Part shown: piece after piece, positions 31,413 to 42,075 of the stretch
How positions within the stretch are numbered: the stretch's first letter is position 1
How the letters are laid out: every line of letters begins with the position of its first letter
Assembly (NCBI GenBank): GCA_015709675.1
Contig: CP054182.1
Location: forward strand, 1,529,448 to 1,593,447
Direction of reading: 5' to 3'
Source: Ignavibacteriales bacterium
GTDB lineage: Bacteria > Bacteroidota > Ignavibacteria > Ignavibacteriales > Ignavibacteriaceae
DNA length: 64,000 nt
Translations under genes and position numbers: made by a program
The notes under the pieces: model-generated
What the model saw: only the letters and a program-made list of their open reading frames with translations
Database searches by the model: none
What the model was told of the DNA's origin: nothing

Positions 31413-33947
31413 TTGTCAACCCAGAATTTTAAGCCCGAAACTGCTGAAAAATTCTGGTTTTGGACAGATAATCAAGATCGAATCAGCTATAGAAACTGGG
31501 ACACCATGACTATTTTATCTTCAACAGATGAAGTACTAAGTCAATTTCAGCCAGCAGTGAATGCATATATAAAAAACAATTGGGAAAACTTCCTTTCTGT
31601 GACTGAGAACGTCGATGACTTCCTCCAATTTAAGGACCCGTGGTTTGTTGATCACGAAGAGCAGCCGTATGGATTAAGAAGCAGAGGTTTGGATGCGCTT
31701 TTGGTTACAGTTCAATCACCATTAGATATTTCACTCTCTTCTGGGCATAAAGGCGTATTCTTGAATCAAGGGGCTGACTGGCAACCACCTTACTACTCCG
31801 TTAAAGCTACAGGCAACCAATATCTCTCCGTTCCGTCTTCCGGTAGAAGCCACTACTTCTATTTTTCGGGTTGGCAGGCAAATCCATCCGTTGGTGCGGA
31901 GTTCCAGTACCCAACACAAACAGAAACTCCGGTTGTATTTAAGCAGGACAATACTACTGTTAGTGCACTATATAAAGGCATACAGCTTTCGAATAACCCC
32001 GAAACCTATACCAACAACGGACAGCAGCACTTTGTAAGGGTTAAGAATAGTTACCTCTATTCTGCTTATGAGTCAATGGGTAAACTTTTCATTGAAGAAA
32101 AGATGCCAAACGGTGCGTGGACCCTTATGAACAATGGAAAACCGATTATTCAGGAACAGGTGTTTTCTTCTTCATTGGATTTTCTTAATAACGGAGCCAA
32201 CGAAGATGATAAACTGCTGCTTGCCTACACAGCTCAGAACTCAGGATACCCTGTTCTTGGCACACTACTGCTCAATGGTTACACAGATGCAGTTATTCTG
32301 AATGATTTTGCTATCTGGCAGAGTGACAATATGCACACACCTTCTGAGTTACAACCAATTGTAGCAGTTAACGGAAGCACAAAGTTTATGATAGTCTTCA
32401 GAAGAGTGGACTCTGATAAAAAAGGTCTCTTCTTCTTCCCAGGCACCATAAATGGAAATGCTGTTACCTATGCTGACAGTTCGGGCTATCCTTGGTATAT
32501 ACACGGAACCAATCAGTATTCCGTGAATCCCACAATTAGTGTTTCCAAATCAGCTTCTAATACACCAGTTTACTGGATCGCCTGGCAGCAAAACTCCCCG
32601 TCCGGCAGTTCCTCTGATATATATTATAAGCAGATTACCGTTCACTCAAATGGCTCATTCACTCAGTATGGAGGTATGATGTCAGGAGGAAGCGGCTACC
32701 CCTGGAACCGTTACCCCACCATCACCTCAATTGGCAACTCCGCCCGTGTTGCCTGGCAGGGTTATGTCGGCTTTATTGAGGATGGTATGAATAAAACCGG
32801 GGCTGATGAGATGGAAGAGTCCAGAATAATATTCAAAAGTACAGACTGGTGGCAGTACTGGCAGTTTGGTTATAATGTTCACAAACCAAATATCAACCGT
32901 CACGATGCAGAGAACGGCTACATTTTTGGCTGGAGCCAGAATGGTGGTCAAGGCATTTATTTTGCAAATAACACAACCCTGAGCACTATTTCAACTGTGA
33001 CAGGCCTTCAAGGGTATGATGTTCAGATTTCAAACGGCACAGACAAGAGCACAATGGTTGCAAACAGCTATAAAACCACACAGCAGCCATATTTCTTTAC
33101 TTCCTCAAACGGGCTTTCATCATTTATGAAGGAACAGAATCTAAGAATCGGTTCAGGCAGAGAGGGAATTATCAGAAAGGGAGATGTTATCTTCAAATAT
33201 CTGGTTGGTGATATCAGCCGTAACGGGCAGGAGATTTCATTTAAGGAGATACCAGACACCATTAATCTAAATTCCCTTGGCATAATTAATTCATATCTTG
33301 AAACAGAGCCGTTTACAGTCAATAGCAATACAGAGTTGTTATACTCAGTCGGCTTTATGGTCTCCGATTCTGTGCTTGGGGCTGAAGAACTGAATGGAGG
33401 TGACGAAATAAATTTCACCCTCACGATAAATGATGCAACAAGCGGTCAGCAGATTGCACTTCTGGATGAGGTTACCTATACCAAAAACGCACTGGGCAAT
33501 TATGGAAATATTGCCTTCCGGGCAACTATGGAAGGAATGCCTGAGACACCGGTTAAGCTAAAACTGACAGTCCAGAGTAATTTTGAACACATCAGTTCAC
33601 TTGCAAGAAGAATTAACATTGGAGATGTGGTCGAGAAGAGCAGCACAAAAACCATAGCAGTTGCCAGCCCATTGATAGTAACCGAATATTCGCTTTCACA
33701 AAACTACCCAAACCCCTTCAATCCGGTGACTGAGATAGAATTCGCGCTCCCTGAGCAGAGTGATGTCACCCTAAAAGTCTATGACATACTCGGTAAAGAG
33801 ATTGCAACACTTGCCTCAGGCAATTATTCAGCCGGCAGATATACAGTTCCCTTTGACGGCACCAGCCACGCAAGCGGAGTATATATCTATAAACTCAGTT
33901 ACGGTAAGGGGCAGAGTATTACCAGAAAGATGACCCTCTTGAAATAA
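31413..33947 (+). CDS. T9SS-sorted protein lacking signal peptide; possible continuation of the subtilase
   Basis: 844 codons from TTG 31413, in frame with the subtilase and separated from it only by TAA and two codons. There is no ATG, signal peptide or ribosome-binding site at the junction. The body is beta-rich (repeats such as NTPVYWIAWQQNSPSGSSSDIYY; SARVAWQGYVG) and ends in a T9SS sorting domain from NYPNPFN (residue 764) to RKMTLLK. As a separate protein it could not reach T9SS without Sec export. Its natural form is probably the C-terminal half of a protein of about 1,500 residues. Confidence 0.75.
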   Translation: MSTQNFKPETAEKFWFWTDNQDRISYRNWDTMTILSSTDEVLSQFQPAVNAYIKNNWENFLSVTENVDDFLQFKDPWFVDHEEQPYGLRSRGLDALLVTVQSPLDISLSSGHKGVFLNQGADWQPPYYSVKATGNQYLSVPSSGRSHYFYFSGWQANPSVGAEFQYPTQTETPVVFKQDNTTVSALYKGIQLSNNPETYTNNGQQHFVRVKNSYLYSAYESMGKLFIEEKMPNGAWTLMNNGKPIIQEQVFSSSLDFLNNGANEDDKLLLAYTAQNSGYPVLGTLLLNGYTDAVILNDFAIWQSDNMHTPSELQPIVAVNGSTKFMIVFRRVDSDKKGLFFFPGTINGNAVTYADSSGYPWYIHGTNQYSVNPTISVSKSASNTPVYWIAWQQNSPSGSSSDIYYKQITVHSNGSFTQYGGMMSGGSGYPWNRYPTITSIGNSARVAWQGYVGFIEDGMNKTGADEMEESRIIFKSTDWWQYWQFGYNVHKPNINRHDAENGYIFGWSQNGGQGIYFANNTTLSTISTVTGLQGYDVQISNGTDKSTMVANSYKTTQQPYFFTSSNGLSSFMKEQNLRIGSGREGIIRKGDVIFKYLVGDISRNGQEISFKEIPDTINLNSLGIINSYLETEPFTVNSNTELLYSVGFMVSDSVLGAEELNGGDEINFTLTINDATSGQQIALLDEVTYTKNALGNYGNIAFRATMEGMPETPVKLKLTVQSNFEHISSLARRINIGDVVEKSSTKTIAVASPLIVTEYSLSQNYPNPFNPVTEIEFALPEQSDVTLKVYDILGKEIATLASGNYSAGRYTVPFDGTSHASGVYIYKLSYGKGQSITRKMTLLK

Positions 33948-34195: not shown

Positions 34196-34750
34196 TCATA
34201 TCATCTCGTTTAAAAGTTCCTGCCGGGGCTGTGCTATGATGACTTTATTAACAAGCAATCCCTTTTCAGAAACCAATGCCGCGCCTGCTTCAACTGCGGC
34301 TGTTACGGCTGCTACTTCACCTGTCATGGTTACAAATGCTTTCCCTCCGAGCGCCATTGCCAGACGCACTTCAATCAGTTTAACCGATGCAGCTTTTACT
34401 GCAGCGTCTGCCGCTTCAATGAGTGAAGCAACGGAGAAAGATTCAATAATGCCAAGCGACTCAAGCAGTTGCACTCCGGTATGTCCGGCAATTGCAGGGA
34501 ATATATCCGGGTGAACATTGGGAATTACGAAATGGTCAATAACCCCAAAGTTAATGGTTTCAACCGCTGCATCCACCGCGGTTTGCACTGCTGCCACTTC
34601 TCCGCCTATCAGGGTCATATATTTTCCGGAGCAGATAGTGCGGGAAAGTACCATTTCAACATTGGAGGTTTTGAGCATAATATCCGCTGCCTGCATTCCG
34701 GCGGCGATGCTGGTCATTTCAATAAGTCCGAGTGAGTTCATTTGTATCAT
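34196..34750 (-). CDS. pduT: Tandem-BMC-domain shell protein, PduT-like
   Basis: 184 residues made of two BMC domains (MNSLGLIEMTSIAAGMQAAD; ESLGIIESFSVASLIEAADA), the BMC-T single-stacked trimer type. Cys40 in SRTICSGKYMTLIGGEV lies where PduT places the cysteine that ligates a [4Fe-4S] cluster in the trimer pore, and the whole protein follows the PduT pattern (VHPDIFPAIAG; VRLAMALGGKAFV). It would let electrons cross a microcompartment shell. It is 12 bases downstream of pduS. No other shell protein or enzyme of a microcompartment is in the window. Confidence 0.9.
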   Translation of the reverse strand: MIQMNSLGLIEMTSIAAGMQAADIMLKTSNVEMVLSRTICSGKYMTLIGGEVAAVQTAVDAAVETINFGVIDHFVIPNVHPDIFPAIAGHTGVQLLESLGIIESFSVASLIEAADAAVKAASVKLIEVRLAMALGGKAFVTMTGEVAAVTAAVEAGAALVSEKGLLVNKVIIAQPRQELLNEMI

Positions 34751-34762
34751 AGTAATATCTTT

Positions 34763-36076
34763 TTAAGCTTTTATGGATATATAATTCTGTGTCACCTCAG
34801 TAATCCTGCCGCTAATTGAAGCGTGAATTTCACTGCCGAGTTTGCCTCCTGAGATGTGTGCAATTTTTGCTCCGCGCGAAACGGTTTCTCCTTCTGAAAC
34901 AAGCGGCACTGCTATTTCACCTACATGCTGTTTTAAGGGAATTTTAACTTTTACCGGAGCAGGTGATTTATCAGTAAAGGGGGTGTGCCCGTCATACTGC
35001 TCAAGCCGCAGTTTTTTAACAAGCTGCTTTAGGGGAACTCTGCGTCCCTCTTTCATCGGGTGAACTTTAACAGGTTTTTCCTGTATATACTTCATTCCGG
35101 CAGAACGCATTTCTTTTTTACTTTTGTCACATGCTTCTTTGGGGAACAGATCTTCCGGACAGGCGTAGAGTGTGCAGAGTCCGCAGGCACAGCAAAGCTC
35201 AGCCATCTGATTCCACACGTCTGAGCCGGTTTTTGAAAAGCCGAGTGAGCGCATTACCAGATGCGGCTGCACGTTATATCCAAGCAGGTAACGCGGGCAA
35301 AATTCCGTGCAATAGCTGCATTGGTCGCAGGCAGATTTACCGATGCGGTGCCAGTTTTTCTCCGGCTGATTTTTCCGCTGAATGATGTAGTGATTCATTG
35401 GCAGGACAATAATACCCGAAGAAGTTTTTGTTACTACTTCATCAAGATCCATGGTAAGCTGCCCCATCATCACGCCTCCGTTATATATAGCAAAGTCAGA
35501 GACGGTGGTTCCTCCTGCAAACTCAATCAGTTCGCGGAAAGTTGTGCCGACCGGAGTCCAGAATGTGGAGGGTTTCTTCACCGCGCCGGCTACACAGACA
35601 AATTTATCTGTCACCCCTTGCCCCTGATGCGCAAGCCATATATTATAAAACGATTCAACATTATTCACCACGCAACCAACCTGAAGGGGAATTCCGGCGG
35701 GGGGTATCAGCCGTTTGGTGGCAGCGTAAACAAGCTCATATTCATCACCGGCGGGATAAAAATCACCCAGAAAGGTAAATTCAATATTGGTATCCTTCAG
35801 ATACGGTTCAATTGCTTCAATGGCTTTTACATTTTTGGATTTAAGACCGAAGAATCCTTTTTTTGCTCCGGTGCTCTCAATCATCAGTTTCATCCCCTCA
35901 ACAATTTCGCGGGGATGGGCTTTCATCAATTCGTAATCTTTATGAATTAACGGCTCACATTCGGCGCCGTTTGCCAGGACAAATTCAACCTGCGACTGTG
36001 CTTTGATGTGAGTGGGGAATCCTGCTCCGCCGGCCCCTACCACTCCGGCTTCCTGTATCTGTTGTGCTAATGACAT
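34763..36076 (-). CDS. pduS: PduS-like cobalamin reductase / RnfC-related flavoprotein
   Basis: 437 residues. Like PduS and RnfC it opens with GVVGAGGAGFPTHIK and an NADH/FMN-binding fold (ANGAECEPLIHKDYELM; GVVNNVESFYNIW-type). Two [4Fe-4S] motifs follow (SACDQCSYCTEFCPRYLLG; ELCCACGLCTLYACPEDL), and a C-terminal SLBB/biotinyl-like domain (VPLVSEGETVSRGAKIAHISGG) ends it. In the Pdu system it reduces cob(III)/cob(II)alamin for diol dehydratase and contacts PduT. AGGA precedes the ATG. Here the pair stands alone, so its catabolic partner must be elsewhere. Confidence 0.9.
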   Translation of the reverse strand: MSLAQQIQEAGVVGAGGAGFPTHIKAQSQVEFVLANGAECEPLIHKDYELMKAHPREIVEGMKLMIESTGAKKGFFGLKSKNVKAIEAIEPYLKDTNIEFTFLGDFYPAGDEYELVYAATKRLIPPAGIPLQVGCVVNNVESFYNIWLAHQGQGVTDKFVCVAGAVKKPSTFWTPVGTTFRELIEFAGGTTVSDFAIYNGGVMMGQLTMDLDEVVTKTSSGIIVLPMNHYIIQRKNQPEKNWHRIGKSACDQCSYCTEFCPRYLLGYNVQPHLVMRSLGFSKTGSDVWNQMAELCCACGLCTLYACPEDLFPKEACDKSKKEMRSAGMKYIQEKPVKVHPMKEGRRVPLKQLVKKLRLEQYDGHTPFTDKSPAPVKVKIPLKQHVGEIAVPLVSEGETVSRGAKIAHISGGKLGSEIHASISGRITEVTQNYISIKA

Positions 36077-38936: not shown

Positions 38937-39965
38937 ATGAAGTCCGTCTTGTTTCCAAGTGTGATTGAAAATCACGATAACGCATTGCAGAGTGCAATTA
39001 ATAATCTTGTTGACGGCATCAAGATTCATCAGAATGGCAGTCAGTATATTGTCGGCAATCTTGCACTTGAGGAGGGTGTTTCCCCCCATAAAATCGTAAA
39101 TGCAAATCCGCAGGATACTGATTATCAGGTACTTGCTGGTTCAGGCCTTCTTCTCCTTTCTCAGTATATGAAAGCTCCCGTAACACTCACCGTTGGATTC
39201 CCCTATGCTACCTATAAAGCAAATCAGGATGCAGCGGTTCAGTATTTCAAAGGGAAGCATGACATAATGTTTGATACCTTCTCTTTTGGTAAAACCAGAA
39301 CCAACAAAGTTGCTGTAGAAGTTGACCGGGTAGAAGTAATACCTGAGATTCTGGGATGCAGCCTGGCCATCAGAAACGAAAGAAAGGGCTCTCCTGAGTT
39401 CTTTGTTGTTTCCATCGGTTACGGAACATTTGAAGCGTGCCTTACCAATAAGAATGGTATCACCGAAAGAACGCTTATCAGCGGCCCCGGTATCCGCTAC
39501 GCAATCAATCAGGCTATGCGCGAACTCAAAAAACAGTATTATCTTGATCTTCGCACCGAGCATCAGTTTGATAAAAATTTCCAGATGGGCAAAATCATCA
39601 TCAACAGAAGGCCGCATGATATTACTGAAATCAGAGCCAAGGCCATTCAGAGTTATTATGATGAGATAATCTCTCCTTCACTCAGAAACGTCTGGAAGGA
39701 TGACGATTTTATGCACACCAATCTTCTGTTCCTGACAGGCGGCGGTTCGCTATATCCCGAACTTCTTGAGTGTTTCAGGAAGGAGTTTGACGGAATTCTT
39801 GAAACCAGTCTGGTTGATGACCCGACCACAAGCGCCAGCCGCGGTTATGCTATCTGGTCAAACAGAATTAATGATGATAAATCTGCCGCAGCCGGGATGG
39901 ACATCGGCAACGCGCAGACAGTTGTAACATTCTTCGAAAACAAATCAGAAAACGAAGAGTTTTAG
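38937..39965 (+). CDS. Actin-like ATPase (ParM/Alp-type) with relocated phosphate-1 motif
   Basis: 342 residues. The N-terminus starts at MKSVLFPSVIENHD, a segment that in archaeal Ta0583 and other Alp/ParM proteins follows the phosphate-1 strand. A degenerate phosphate-2 loop is FFVVSIGYGTFEACL (157-169, Ser159 where Asp is usual), and the adenosine loop is LLFLTGGGSLYPELL (264-276). The canonical phosphate-1 motif DxG is absent from the N-terminus but present at the very C-terminus as AGMDIGNAQTVVTFFENK (319-336), after a linker. A TAA in frame at 38910 rules out an N-terminal extension. The order of elements suggests a circular permutation. Possible cytoskeletal filament; a bactofilin follows. 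Confidence 0.75.
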   Translation: MKSVLFPSVIENHDNALQSAINNLVDGIKIHQNGSQYIVGNLALEEGVSPHKIVNANPQDTDYQVLAGSGLLLLSQYMKAPVTLTVGFPYATYKANQDAAVQYFKGKHDIMFDTFSFGKTRTNKVAVEVDRVEVIPEILGCSLAIRNERKGSPEFFVVSIGYGTFEACLTNKNGITERTLISGPGIRYAINQAMRELKKQYYLDLRTEHQFDKNFQMGKIIINRRPHDITEIRAKAIQSYYDEIISPSLRNVWKDDDFMHTNLLFLTGGGSLYPELLECFRKEFDGILETSLVDDPTTSASRGYAIWSNRINDDKSAAAGMDIGNAQTVVTFFENKSENEEF

Positions 39966-40056: not shown

Positions 40057-40710
40057 ATGAGCTTATTTAGTATTTTTAAAGACAATAGCGCCGCACCATC
40101 TTCAGGCAGTATCACACATATTGCCGCGGGTACGGTATTGTCAGGTGACCTTAACAGCGAATCGCCAGTCTATTTCTTCGGAACCATTACCGGTAGTATT
40201 ATCTCAGGAGGTGATGTATATATTGGGGAGGAAGCAGAAGTTTTTGGCAATGTTAAATCCCCGAATGTATATATGGCAGGGAAGGTGCTGGGAAATTTAC
40301 ACTGCGCCCGTACGATTTATCTGAAAAGTACAGCAGCGGTTCTGGGAAATCTCACCTGCGCGGAAGTTACCATTGAAAAAGGCGCTTTAGTAGCAGGATA
40401 TCTGACCGTTGAATCAGAAAAACTGAATGAACTGAGGGCTAAATCAATCCGCTATCTTGCGGAGAAAAAAGTTGCATCTCTTATCAGTGAAATACCTGAA
40501 ACCGTAGTATCAGACGCAGAAGTAATTTCTTCGGAAGAGATTCCGGAAAACCTTGCCACTGATGCACACCGCGAAACACGTATTCCGGATAACGGACATA
40601 AGCCGAATCGCAGAGTAAGATTATCCAAAGTCACAAAGGAAGAATCAGCCAGAGAAAAACAGAATCCCTCGGCAGAGGATTCTTATGATTACCCGAAGAA
40701 TATCTGGTAA
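40057..40710 (+). CDS. Bactofilin family cytoskeletal protein
   Basis: 217 residues. Residues about 18-125 are the bactofilin (DUF583) beta-helix, with hexad repeats GDLNSESPVYFFGTITGSI, GDVYIGEEAEVFGNV and GNLTCAEVTIEKGALVAGYL. A charged C-terminal tail of about 90 residues has no predicted structure. Bactofilins polymerise without nucleotide into filaments that organise cell-wall or polarity factors. It lies 91 bases after the actin-like gene. Its TAA (40708-40710) directly abuts the stop of the convergent beta-CASP gene with no base between. Confidence 0.92.
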   Translation: MSLFSIFKDNSAAPSSGSITHIAAGTVLSGDLNSESPVYFFGTITGSIISGGDVYIGEEAEVFGNVKSPNVYMAGKVLGNLHCARTIYLKSTAAVLGNLTCAEVTIEKGALVAGYLTVESEKLNELRAKSIRYLAEKKVASLISEIPETVVSDAEVISSEEIPENLATDAHRETRIPDNGHKPNRRVRLSKVTKEESAREKQNPSAEDSYDYPKNIW

Positions 40711-42075
40711 TCAGAACTCTAAAAGTTTCCCCTGTTCTGCCGCATGAATTTTTACATGCGGCATTTTTTTTATCAGCATACTCCCCATCGCCAGAACAGC
40801 CCCTTCATCACCATGTACCAGGATAATTCGTTCAGGATTGATTCCCGCGGCTATCTTTATCAGCCCTTCTGCTGAAGAGTGGGCGCTGAACCTGAACCGC
40901 CTGATGCTGCATTTAACCGGAAGCGCTTTTGTGTGACCAGGGTAATATATATGATCCCCTTTTTTCGCGTTTGCTACCGCGTGCCCAGGCGACTCCGGGT
41001 CCATATATCCCGCGGTAAATATGGCGGAGTCTTTCTGCTGCAGGAAAAGAGGAGCAAGAGTGTAAGAGAGCGTTCCCTCATTCATCATGCCGCTTGATGC
41101 CATAACAATGCATGGCTCCTTAAAAAGATCCTCTTTTTTGTCGAGCGTGGTTATGTTCCTGTAACCGGTAGCTGTCACCTGGAAGTTCGGGTCAACCATA
41201 TTCACCAGATAGCGGTGACGATCATAAAGCCGGTTAATCTTCATCCCGATTCCGTTAATGTATATATCAGTAAATGGCACTTTCCGTTTGTGCATCAGCT
41301 GCCAGATAGTGGTCAGGAGTTCCTGCAGTTTGCCGAGGGAGAAAACCGGCATCAGAACGGACCCCCCCTTATTAAACACTTTGTTCAGTTCAGCACCGAG
41401 CCGTTCCTTTTCTTTCTGCCATGGCTTATAATCTGTATCCGGAGTAAGGCCGTAGGTTGATTCCATAATCAGCAAATCAGCACGGAACCCCTTCCAGGAA
41501 GCGCCCTTAATTACTGCCTGGTCAAAAGGATTGATATCGCCCGTATAGCATATACTTCTGCCTGCGCATTCCAGGAAAACCATTGCCGAGCCGAGTATAT
41601 GCCCTGCATCCCGGAAGGTAAGGGTAATTTCTTCATTCAGCTTATGTTTATGTCCGGCAATCTCCAGCGGTTTATCATAGGGGAGTACGATAATACTTCC
41701 GGTGAGCATCTCTATTTCATCATGGGAGAAAAGCTTTTTTGCTTCAATAGGGTCAAGCTCTTCCCTCATGATGTTGAGTGCGTTATGAAGTGTCAGTTCC
41801 GCAATATCTCTTGTCGCGGGTGTGGCAATAACCTGAATGTATGGATGCAGCTTTACCAGAAAGGGGAGGGAATTAAGATGATCCTGATGAGCGTGGGTAA
41901 TTATGACATAATCTACCGGGTCATTTTCGATCAGACTGAAATCAGGGAGGGAATCATAGCCCTCTTTGCGGGGATGCTGACCGCAGTCGAGGATGATGCC
42001 TGTTCCAAAGAAGTTAATATAGTAGCTGTTAGCCCCGATTTCCATTGCTCCCCCGAGCGCTTTAAATTGTATCAT
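40711..42075 (-). CDS. Metallo-beta-lactamase/beta-CASP family RNase-like hydrolase
   Basis: 454 residues from ATG 42075 (MIQFKALGGAMEIGANSYY). The longer frame to 42348 adds 91 residues that are the antisense of the divergent gene and is rejected. The MBL zinc motif is HAHQDH (61-66), with further ligands in RDAGHILGSAM and YTGDINPFDQ. The beta-CASP insert follows (DLLIMESTYGLTPD; MASSGMMNEGTLSY), ending in RFRFSAHSSAEGLIK. It resembles archaeal/bacterial CPSF-like RNA-processing nucleases (YSH group) more than RNase J. Likely acts on RNA in the cytoplasm. Confidence 0.85.
   Translation of the reverse strand: MIQFKALGGAMEIGANSYYINFFGTGIILDCGQHPRKEGYDSLPDFSLIENDPVDYVIITHAHQDHLNSLPFLVKLHPYIQVIATPATRDIAELTLHNALNIMREELDPIEAKKLFSHDEIEMLTGSIIVLPYDKPLEIAGHKHKLNEEITLTFRDAGHILGSAMVFLECAGRSICYTGDINPFDQAVIKGASWKGFRADLLIMESTYGLTPDTDYKPWQKEKERLGAELNKVFNKGGSVLMPVFSLGKLQELLTTIWQLMHKRKVPFTDIYINGIGMKINRLYDRHRYLVNMVDPNFQVTATGYRNITTLDKKEDLFKEPCIVMASSGMMNEGTLSYTLAPLFLQQKDSAIFTAGYMDPESPGHAVANAKKGDHIYYPGHTKALPVKCSIRRFRFSAHSSAEGLIKIAAGINPERIILVHGDEGAVLAMGSMLIKKMPHVKIHAAEQGKLLEF

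Follow-up and report, generated by a model that had tools for sequence, protein, structure and literature searches.

A putative natural circular permutation of an actin-like protein encoded beside bactofilin in Bacteroidota and related bacteria

A 64,000-nucleotide stretch of DNA from an Ignavibacteriales bacterium (the whole stretch is called the window below) encodes an actin-like protein which, with a probability of about 95% in our estimate, is a natural circular permutation. By kinship of fold and sequence the protein belongs among known actin-like proteins; what is new is the order of its first hairpin relative to ten normal-order proteins and to the solved structures compared. From the sequence and the predicted model, the chain would start with strand 3 of subdomain IA, run through an otherwise normal actin fold to the last helix and then, after a linker of 5 residues, enter the strand 1-strand 2 hairpin, which carries the phosphate-1 loop GxDxGN and would pair with the N-terminal strand. 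In addition, a cytoskeletal link of some kind between this protein and bactofilin is likely. The actin fold is ancient, and to our knowledge no natural rotated form of it has been known. In the open literature searched (titles, starts of abstracts and term counts), no relevant paper on a permuted actin was found, and the string “permut” is absent from the main text of two recent papers on new actins, one of them PMC12645912.

Gene and sequence features

The features of the gene and of its neighbour are collected in Table 1. The sequence-only reading, made without database searches, had started the protein directly at MKSVLFPSVI, placed the phosphate-1 motif at the C-terminus, found Ser in the phosphate-2 loop beside a normal adenosine loop, and taken a stop in the leader to rule out a longer N-terminus; all of these points were borne out. 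The C-terminal end of the protein is AAAGMDIGNAQTVVTFFENKSENEEF, with DIGN at residues 322–325, and the DxG phosphate-1 element (GMDIGNAQT) occurs at the C-terminus only, at residues 320–328. The phosphate-2-like loop is VVSIGYGTFE with S159, and the adenosine loop LTGGGS is present at residues 266–271. An in-frame stop lies 8 codons 5′ of the ATG, which excludes a longer N-terminus in the same frame, and the remaining two frames are full of stops from 38661 to the start. What goes beyond that reading is the family-wide nature of the Asp-to-Ser change and the linkage to bactofilin.

Table 1. Positions of the permuted actin-like gene, its sequence elements and the adjoining bactofilin gene in the window
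Feature	Position	Strand	Basis
Gene of the permuted actin-like ATPase, 342 aa and stop codon	38937..39965	+	ORF, 72 related loci, AlphaFold actin fold
New N-terminus MKSVLFPSVIE, residues 1–11	38937..38969	+	equivalent of actin strand 3
E137, invariant acidic residue	39345..39347	+	48/48 members
Phosphate-2-like loop VSIGYGTFE, residues 158–166; S159 vs Asp in gp506	39408..39434	+	aligned to VDIGYRTSD
Adenosine-binding loop GGGS, residues 268–271	39738..39749	+	sequence
Linker, residues 313–317, from last helix (296–312) to moved hairpin	39873..39887	+	AlphaFold elements
Moved phosphate-1 hairpin AAGMDIGNAQTVVTF, residues 318–332; strands 318–323 and 327–332	39888..39932	+	model, rotation tests, truncation
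Bactofilin gene adjoining actin gene	40057..40710	+	PF04519, 77.1 bits vs cut-off 27.9, E 1.2e-21
Terminator-like hairpin and T run directly after bactofilin gene	40738..40763	+	consensus scan, pattern match only

Elsewhere in the window, a double BMC shell-domain protein is encoded at 34196–36076 (−) beside a Complex1_51K/SLBB/RnfC-type protein, and this region resembles a piece of a microcompartment locus. At 31413–33947 (+) lies the gene of a large protein whose C-terminal part holds a secretion-system sorting domain (PF18962). Linkage of the actin gene to the BMC shell gene, at a distance of 4 kb, was considered and rejected: a relative turned up only in the window stretch, one of the 73 loci, within the flanks covered, mostly about 6 kb on each side.

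Relatives and conserved order

The gene was found in seven of 59 whole genomes searched, its own included (six of the 58 others), and the six relatives are full length with an order identical to that of the window protein. A scan of genome_contigs with a seven-row alignment as query, which relies on two short conserved peptides and is not exhaustive, gave 72 loci with 34–95% identity, all of them in Bacteroidota, Ignavibacteriota or Balneolota according to record titles and lineages. Three loci were left out: L058 and L078, whose reading frames are broken, and L008, which is nearly identical to the window gene and sits on a contig equal in length to that of L002. The remaining 69 with the window protein form 70 intact members with 65 different sequences. 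All 70 carry G-x-D-x-G-N in the C-terminal part, so the same order in orthologues, proposed as a check by the sequence-only reading, is found in all of these groups. At none of the 72 loci does the in-frame sequence upstream of the match contain a DxG; its median length is 10 codons, with 22 or fewer at 66 loci, and at L005 the in-frame stop stands one codon upstream. In a 48-row alignment, G320, D322, G324, N325 and E137 are invariant (48/48); E137 is presumably the equivalent of ParM E148.

Furthermore, when 395 genomes of the phylum were searched with a profile, 25 matches in 23 genomes were obtained: 24 cover practically the full length of the permuted model, including one that contains an internal stop, and the last is a fragment lying at the edge of a contig. 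PF17989 (ALP_N), searched in 296 genomes, gave 11 matches in 10 genomes, starting at profile positions 16–21, and by coordinates all 11 fall on genes of the permuted family. No normal-order ALP_N protein was thus found in the phylum sample, which is weak evidence since this search was not exhaustive and missed known members, the window's gene among them.

Some members have peculiarities of their own. The protein of L055:5992-7380 has a charged extension of ~117 residues beyond the C-terminal hairpin, indicating that the new C-terminus tolerates additions. Dysgonomonas mossii DSM 22836 harbors three copies (L019, L024 and L077), each flanked on either side by a bactofilin frame; these copies branch among Sphingobacteriaceae rows, which suggests transfer.

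Rotation tests

When the tail was moved to the front, the score against a normal-order HMM made from ten proteins (seven phage and three plasmid actins) rose by 1.4–10.4 bits in all 70 intact members, with a mean of 4.85. In 56 members the rotated sequence outscored the native one, the reversed-tail one and every one of the 20 shuffles, while in the other 14 it was not above every control; for example, L031 reached 50.5 bits with the reversed tail and 48.8 when rotated. With Pfam ALP_N, nine of ten diverse whole native members gave a match, from profile position 16–18; eight of these exceeded the cut-off and L076 scored 24.9 bits. Constructs consisting of the tail and the first 150 residues matched from position 1 with 39.1–65.7 bits in the same nine, those with the reversed tail from position 14–17 with 27.9–56.8 bits, and rotated was above reversed in each of the nine detectable members. 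The tenth, L031, had no match to ALP_N as native, rotated or reversed sequence.

A scan of cut positions with hhalign gave 154.0 for the native order, aligned from target position 41, and 164.8–166.0 for cuts at 305–318, aligned from position 20–23, where the phosphate-1 strand lies; cuts at 290 or below gave 151.2 or less. The plateau is thus formed by cuts just before the hairpin, as predicted. Against PHROG 691, the window protein scored 100.4 bits from position 25 in the native order, 108.1 from position 7 when rotated and 101.8 with the reversed tail, and L041 went from 77.0 native to 90.5 rotated, while L014, with 80.1 bits native, had no match once rotated. Searches of PDB sequences gave no overall gain by rotation (best 19.3 rotated vs 22.2 native). 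The native profile found weak pieces out of order there, its positions 316–340 falling on BiP residues 18–42, ahead of the other pieces, with only 3.8 bits; likewise, positions 1–18 of the FtsA profile fell on residues 340–357 of native L041, below the cut-off. The score gain that the sequence-only reading had expected of the rotated order was therefore obtained with the normal-order HMM, ALP_N and hhalign, but not with PDB sequences.

Predicted structure

AlphaFold2 with 48 alignment rows predicted a two-domain actin fold with a pLDDT of 91.4 and a pTM of 0.90. Strands 318–323 and 327–332 are in well-predicted blocks, and the blocks at 301–330 have a pLDDT of 94–98. The best Foldseek matches in the PDB were Ta0583 and ParM proteins. 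In VIA-align 2, model residue 1 was placed on chain residue 18–60 in all 50 rows listed (normal actins and Hsp70s), and the alignment was over by model residue 316, a pattern expected of a sequential aligner if the first hairpin is out of order at the C-terminus.

As a truncation control, residues 1–314 were predicted with the alignment rows cut likewise. The truncated model lost strand 2–7, and confidence dropped mainly in domain I: from 93 to 78 at residues 1–10, from 83 to 57 at 11–20, from 87 to 68 at 41–50 and from 82 to 68 at 111–120, whereas the blocks from 151 to 290 changed by 3 at most. On the basis of strand assignment and of these truncation effects, without measured contacts to the nucleotide, the C-terminal hairpin is most likely the partner of the N-terminal strand in domain I of the predicted fold. 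The proposal that the first hairpin of subdomain IA has shifted from the N- to the C-terminus is accordingly supported by order, rotation and model, the last being a confident actin fold that needs the hairpin for strand 2–7.

Active site

At phosphate-2, the normal-order gp506 has VVDIGYRTSD where the window protein has VVSIGYGTFE. The first residue is S in 65, N in three and G in one of the 69 other members, and Asp in none, while the adenosine motif, GG followed by G or A, is kept in 48/48. The equivalence of S159 to the phosphate-2 residues of known actins is our assumption, made from our own alignment to gp506 and from residue numbering. ATP may be bound in the usual cleft and the protein may polymerise, both being inferences. 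With Ser, or more rarely N or G, in place of the phosphate-2 Asp, hydrolysis may be slow and the filaments, if formed, may be rather static; slow hydrolysis, inferred from the Asp loss without turnover data, is held tentatively, at somewhat less than even odds. Or the replacement may have abolished polymerisation.

Bactofilin neighbourhood and function

Clustering of neighbours and HMM search placed a bactofilin frame within 400 nt downstream on the same strand in 47 of the 73 loci, within about 1.2 kb in three more and in convergent orientation in another three. No bactofilin is near in the other 20, three of which have less than 1 kb of downstream DNA. By record titles, 19 of these 20 are Bacteroidales, with the genera Odoribacter and Azobacteroides counted as such, and one is an unresolved Bacteroidetes; absence in 19 rows amounts to two changes on the family tree. 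Twelve genomes examined have 1–4 bactofilin matches each, and since one of these stands beside the permuted actin in ten of the genomes (none beside it in the other two), the adjacency is not due to chance. The terminator scan found 5 sites vs 2.3 expected. It placed one just after the bactofilin gene and reported no site in the gap that separates this gene from the actin gene, so a joint transcript is possible.

An M23 peptidase gene, forming one cluster of which one representative was checked by Pfam (PF01551), is present in 13 of the 73 loci, and stands directly before the actin in three Melioribacteraceae-like ones. These three (L027, L028 and L030) share a conserved block of a GWxTD-domain protein, one further gene, M23, permuted actin, a TPR protein and bactofilin; for the GWxTD and TPR genes, the check was limited to L027.

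Judging from this gene order, the actin and the neighbouring bactofilin filament, with the M23 peptidase in some lineages, might shape the cell envelope locally, and an envelope role together with bactofilin, inferred from gene context, has an even chance in our estimate. A separate MreB match was found in all 12 permuted-actin genomes (in one genome the match is split over two contigs), which makes the permuted actin an addition. We favour the envelope role over DNA segregation, with the interaction itself only inferred, because of the bactofilin adjacency, the known bactofilin-M23 shape modules, the FcmB precedent and the separate MreB.

The strongest competing explanation is that the permuted actin segregates DNA in the manner of ParM and of partition proteins of phages, in which case bactofilin or some other neighbour would be the anchor. 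Among sequence families PHROG 691, a “partition protein” (E 2.2e-28), is indeed the closest to it, as are Ta0583 and ParM proteins among solved structures; however, tblastn of 72,556 plasmid records gave no match, the matches in 50,697 phage records were confined to two phage G records with the distant normal-order gp506, and the recurrent neighbour is bactofilin, with only frames of at least 60 aa clustered. Moreover, with FcmB a ParM-derived actin that has turned to cell shape is already on record (PMC12645912). DNA segregation is thus unlikely, though it cannot be set aside.

A phage, viral or plasmid home of the gene was rejected, with no plasmid relative and only the distant normal-order gp506 in phages in the collections searched; no relative was found in viral_contigs with patterns from one protein. 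The phage gene, gp506 of phage G (L114:2617-3732), encodes a normal-order actin of a giant Bacillus phage and is the sole tblastn relative in the phage collection.

Origin and other explanations of the order

As for the chain order itself, the C-terminal hairpin could complete a neighbouring subunit, giving filaments held together by swapped phosphate-1 hairpins. A monomer prediction cannot separate an own from a swapped hairpin, and some members, such as the Odoribacter and Azobacteroides rows, have longer linkers; the 5-residue linker of the window protein (from 312 to 318) and the pLDDT of 94–98 at 301–330 nevertheless favour packing within a single chain, and strand exchange is very improbable. 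The gene could also be degenerate or an artefact (a frameshift, a faulty assembly or an overlooked N-terminal start), for which only the broken frames at two of the 72 loci could speak. This is rejected as next to impossible, given that order and similar length are common to 70 intact members, which come from both isolates and MAGs, that a stop is usually met a few codons upstream and that active-site residues are strongly conserved.

The circular permutation is inferred to go back to a tandem duplication whose outer parts were lost, or to some equivalent rearrangement, and the ancestor in which this happened would have belonged to the ParM/phage-partition (ALP_N) group. Inheritance, loss and occasional transfer within the Bacteroidota-Ignavibacteriota group may have followed. 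The family implies that the nucleotide-binding hairpin of an actin can be supplied from the opposite end of the chain, and can serve as nature's own experiment on the order of folding and on the chain ends that an actin must keep free. The linkage to bactofilin suggests that, in a large bacterial group, a filament that depends on nucleotide and one that does not may act as partners. The widest reading, a first noticed natural permutation of the actin fold in an old conserved family that forms with bactofilin a composite cytoskeleton steering envelope growth separately from MreB, is more speculative, and we give it little more than one chance in three.

Comparison with known systems

The closest known group is ParM/ALP_N (PF17989), including Ta0583, Dh-cParM1, gp506 and PHROG 691, whose fold is like that of the permuted actin: Ta0583 (2fsj) aligns with Z 25.1 over 286 residues (rmsd 2.7) and Dh-cParM1 (8x1i) with Z 27.5 over 302 residues (rmsd 3.1), and ALP_N matches the window protein with 52.6 bits against a cut-off of 26.3. 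The permuted actin differs from this group in its C-terminal first hairpin, in having mostly Ser for the phosphate-2 Asp, in its bactofilin neighbour and in the absence of a match in the plasmid collection. No NCBIfam model was over its cut-off with four members (best PRTRC_D, 28.5 vs 214.8 bits), and phmmer of the window protein against the PDB gave four matches with E 0.69–1, none useful. MreB shares the actin fold (T. maritima 1jcf, Z 21.4, 268 residues, rmsd 3.1) but has the normal order, and MreB PF06723 gave the window protein 15.3 bits, below the cut-off of 27.

The CorM structure (9rmi) aligns with the permuted actin with Z 24.6 over 290 residues (rmsd 3.1). FcmB and CorM are, we presume, one family. 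In filamentous cyanobacteria, FcmB is a ParM-derived chromosomal actin that acts as a shape factor; its partner gene is fcmC, unlike the case of the permuted actin, and a term look-up found no “bactofilin” in its main text (PMC12645912).

Bactofilin-M23 pairs (BacA-LmdC) have been described as shape modules in 226 species of many phyla, with the FCB group named in a figure legend on these pairs, and “ParM” is absent from its main text (PMC10945521). The permuted-actin loci resemble BacA-LmdC in having bactofilin and, in some lineages, a nearby M23 gene, but differ in that their own recurrent neighbour is an actin-like gene.
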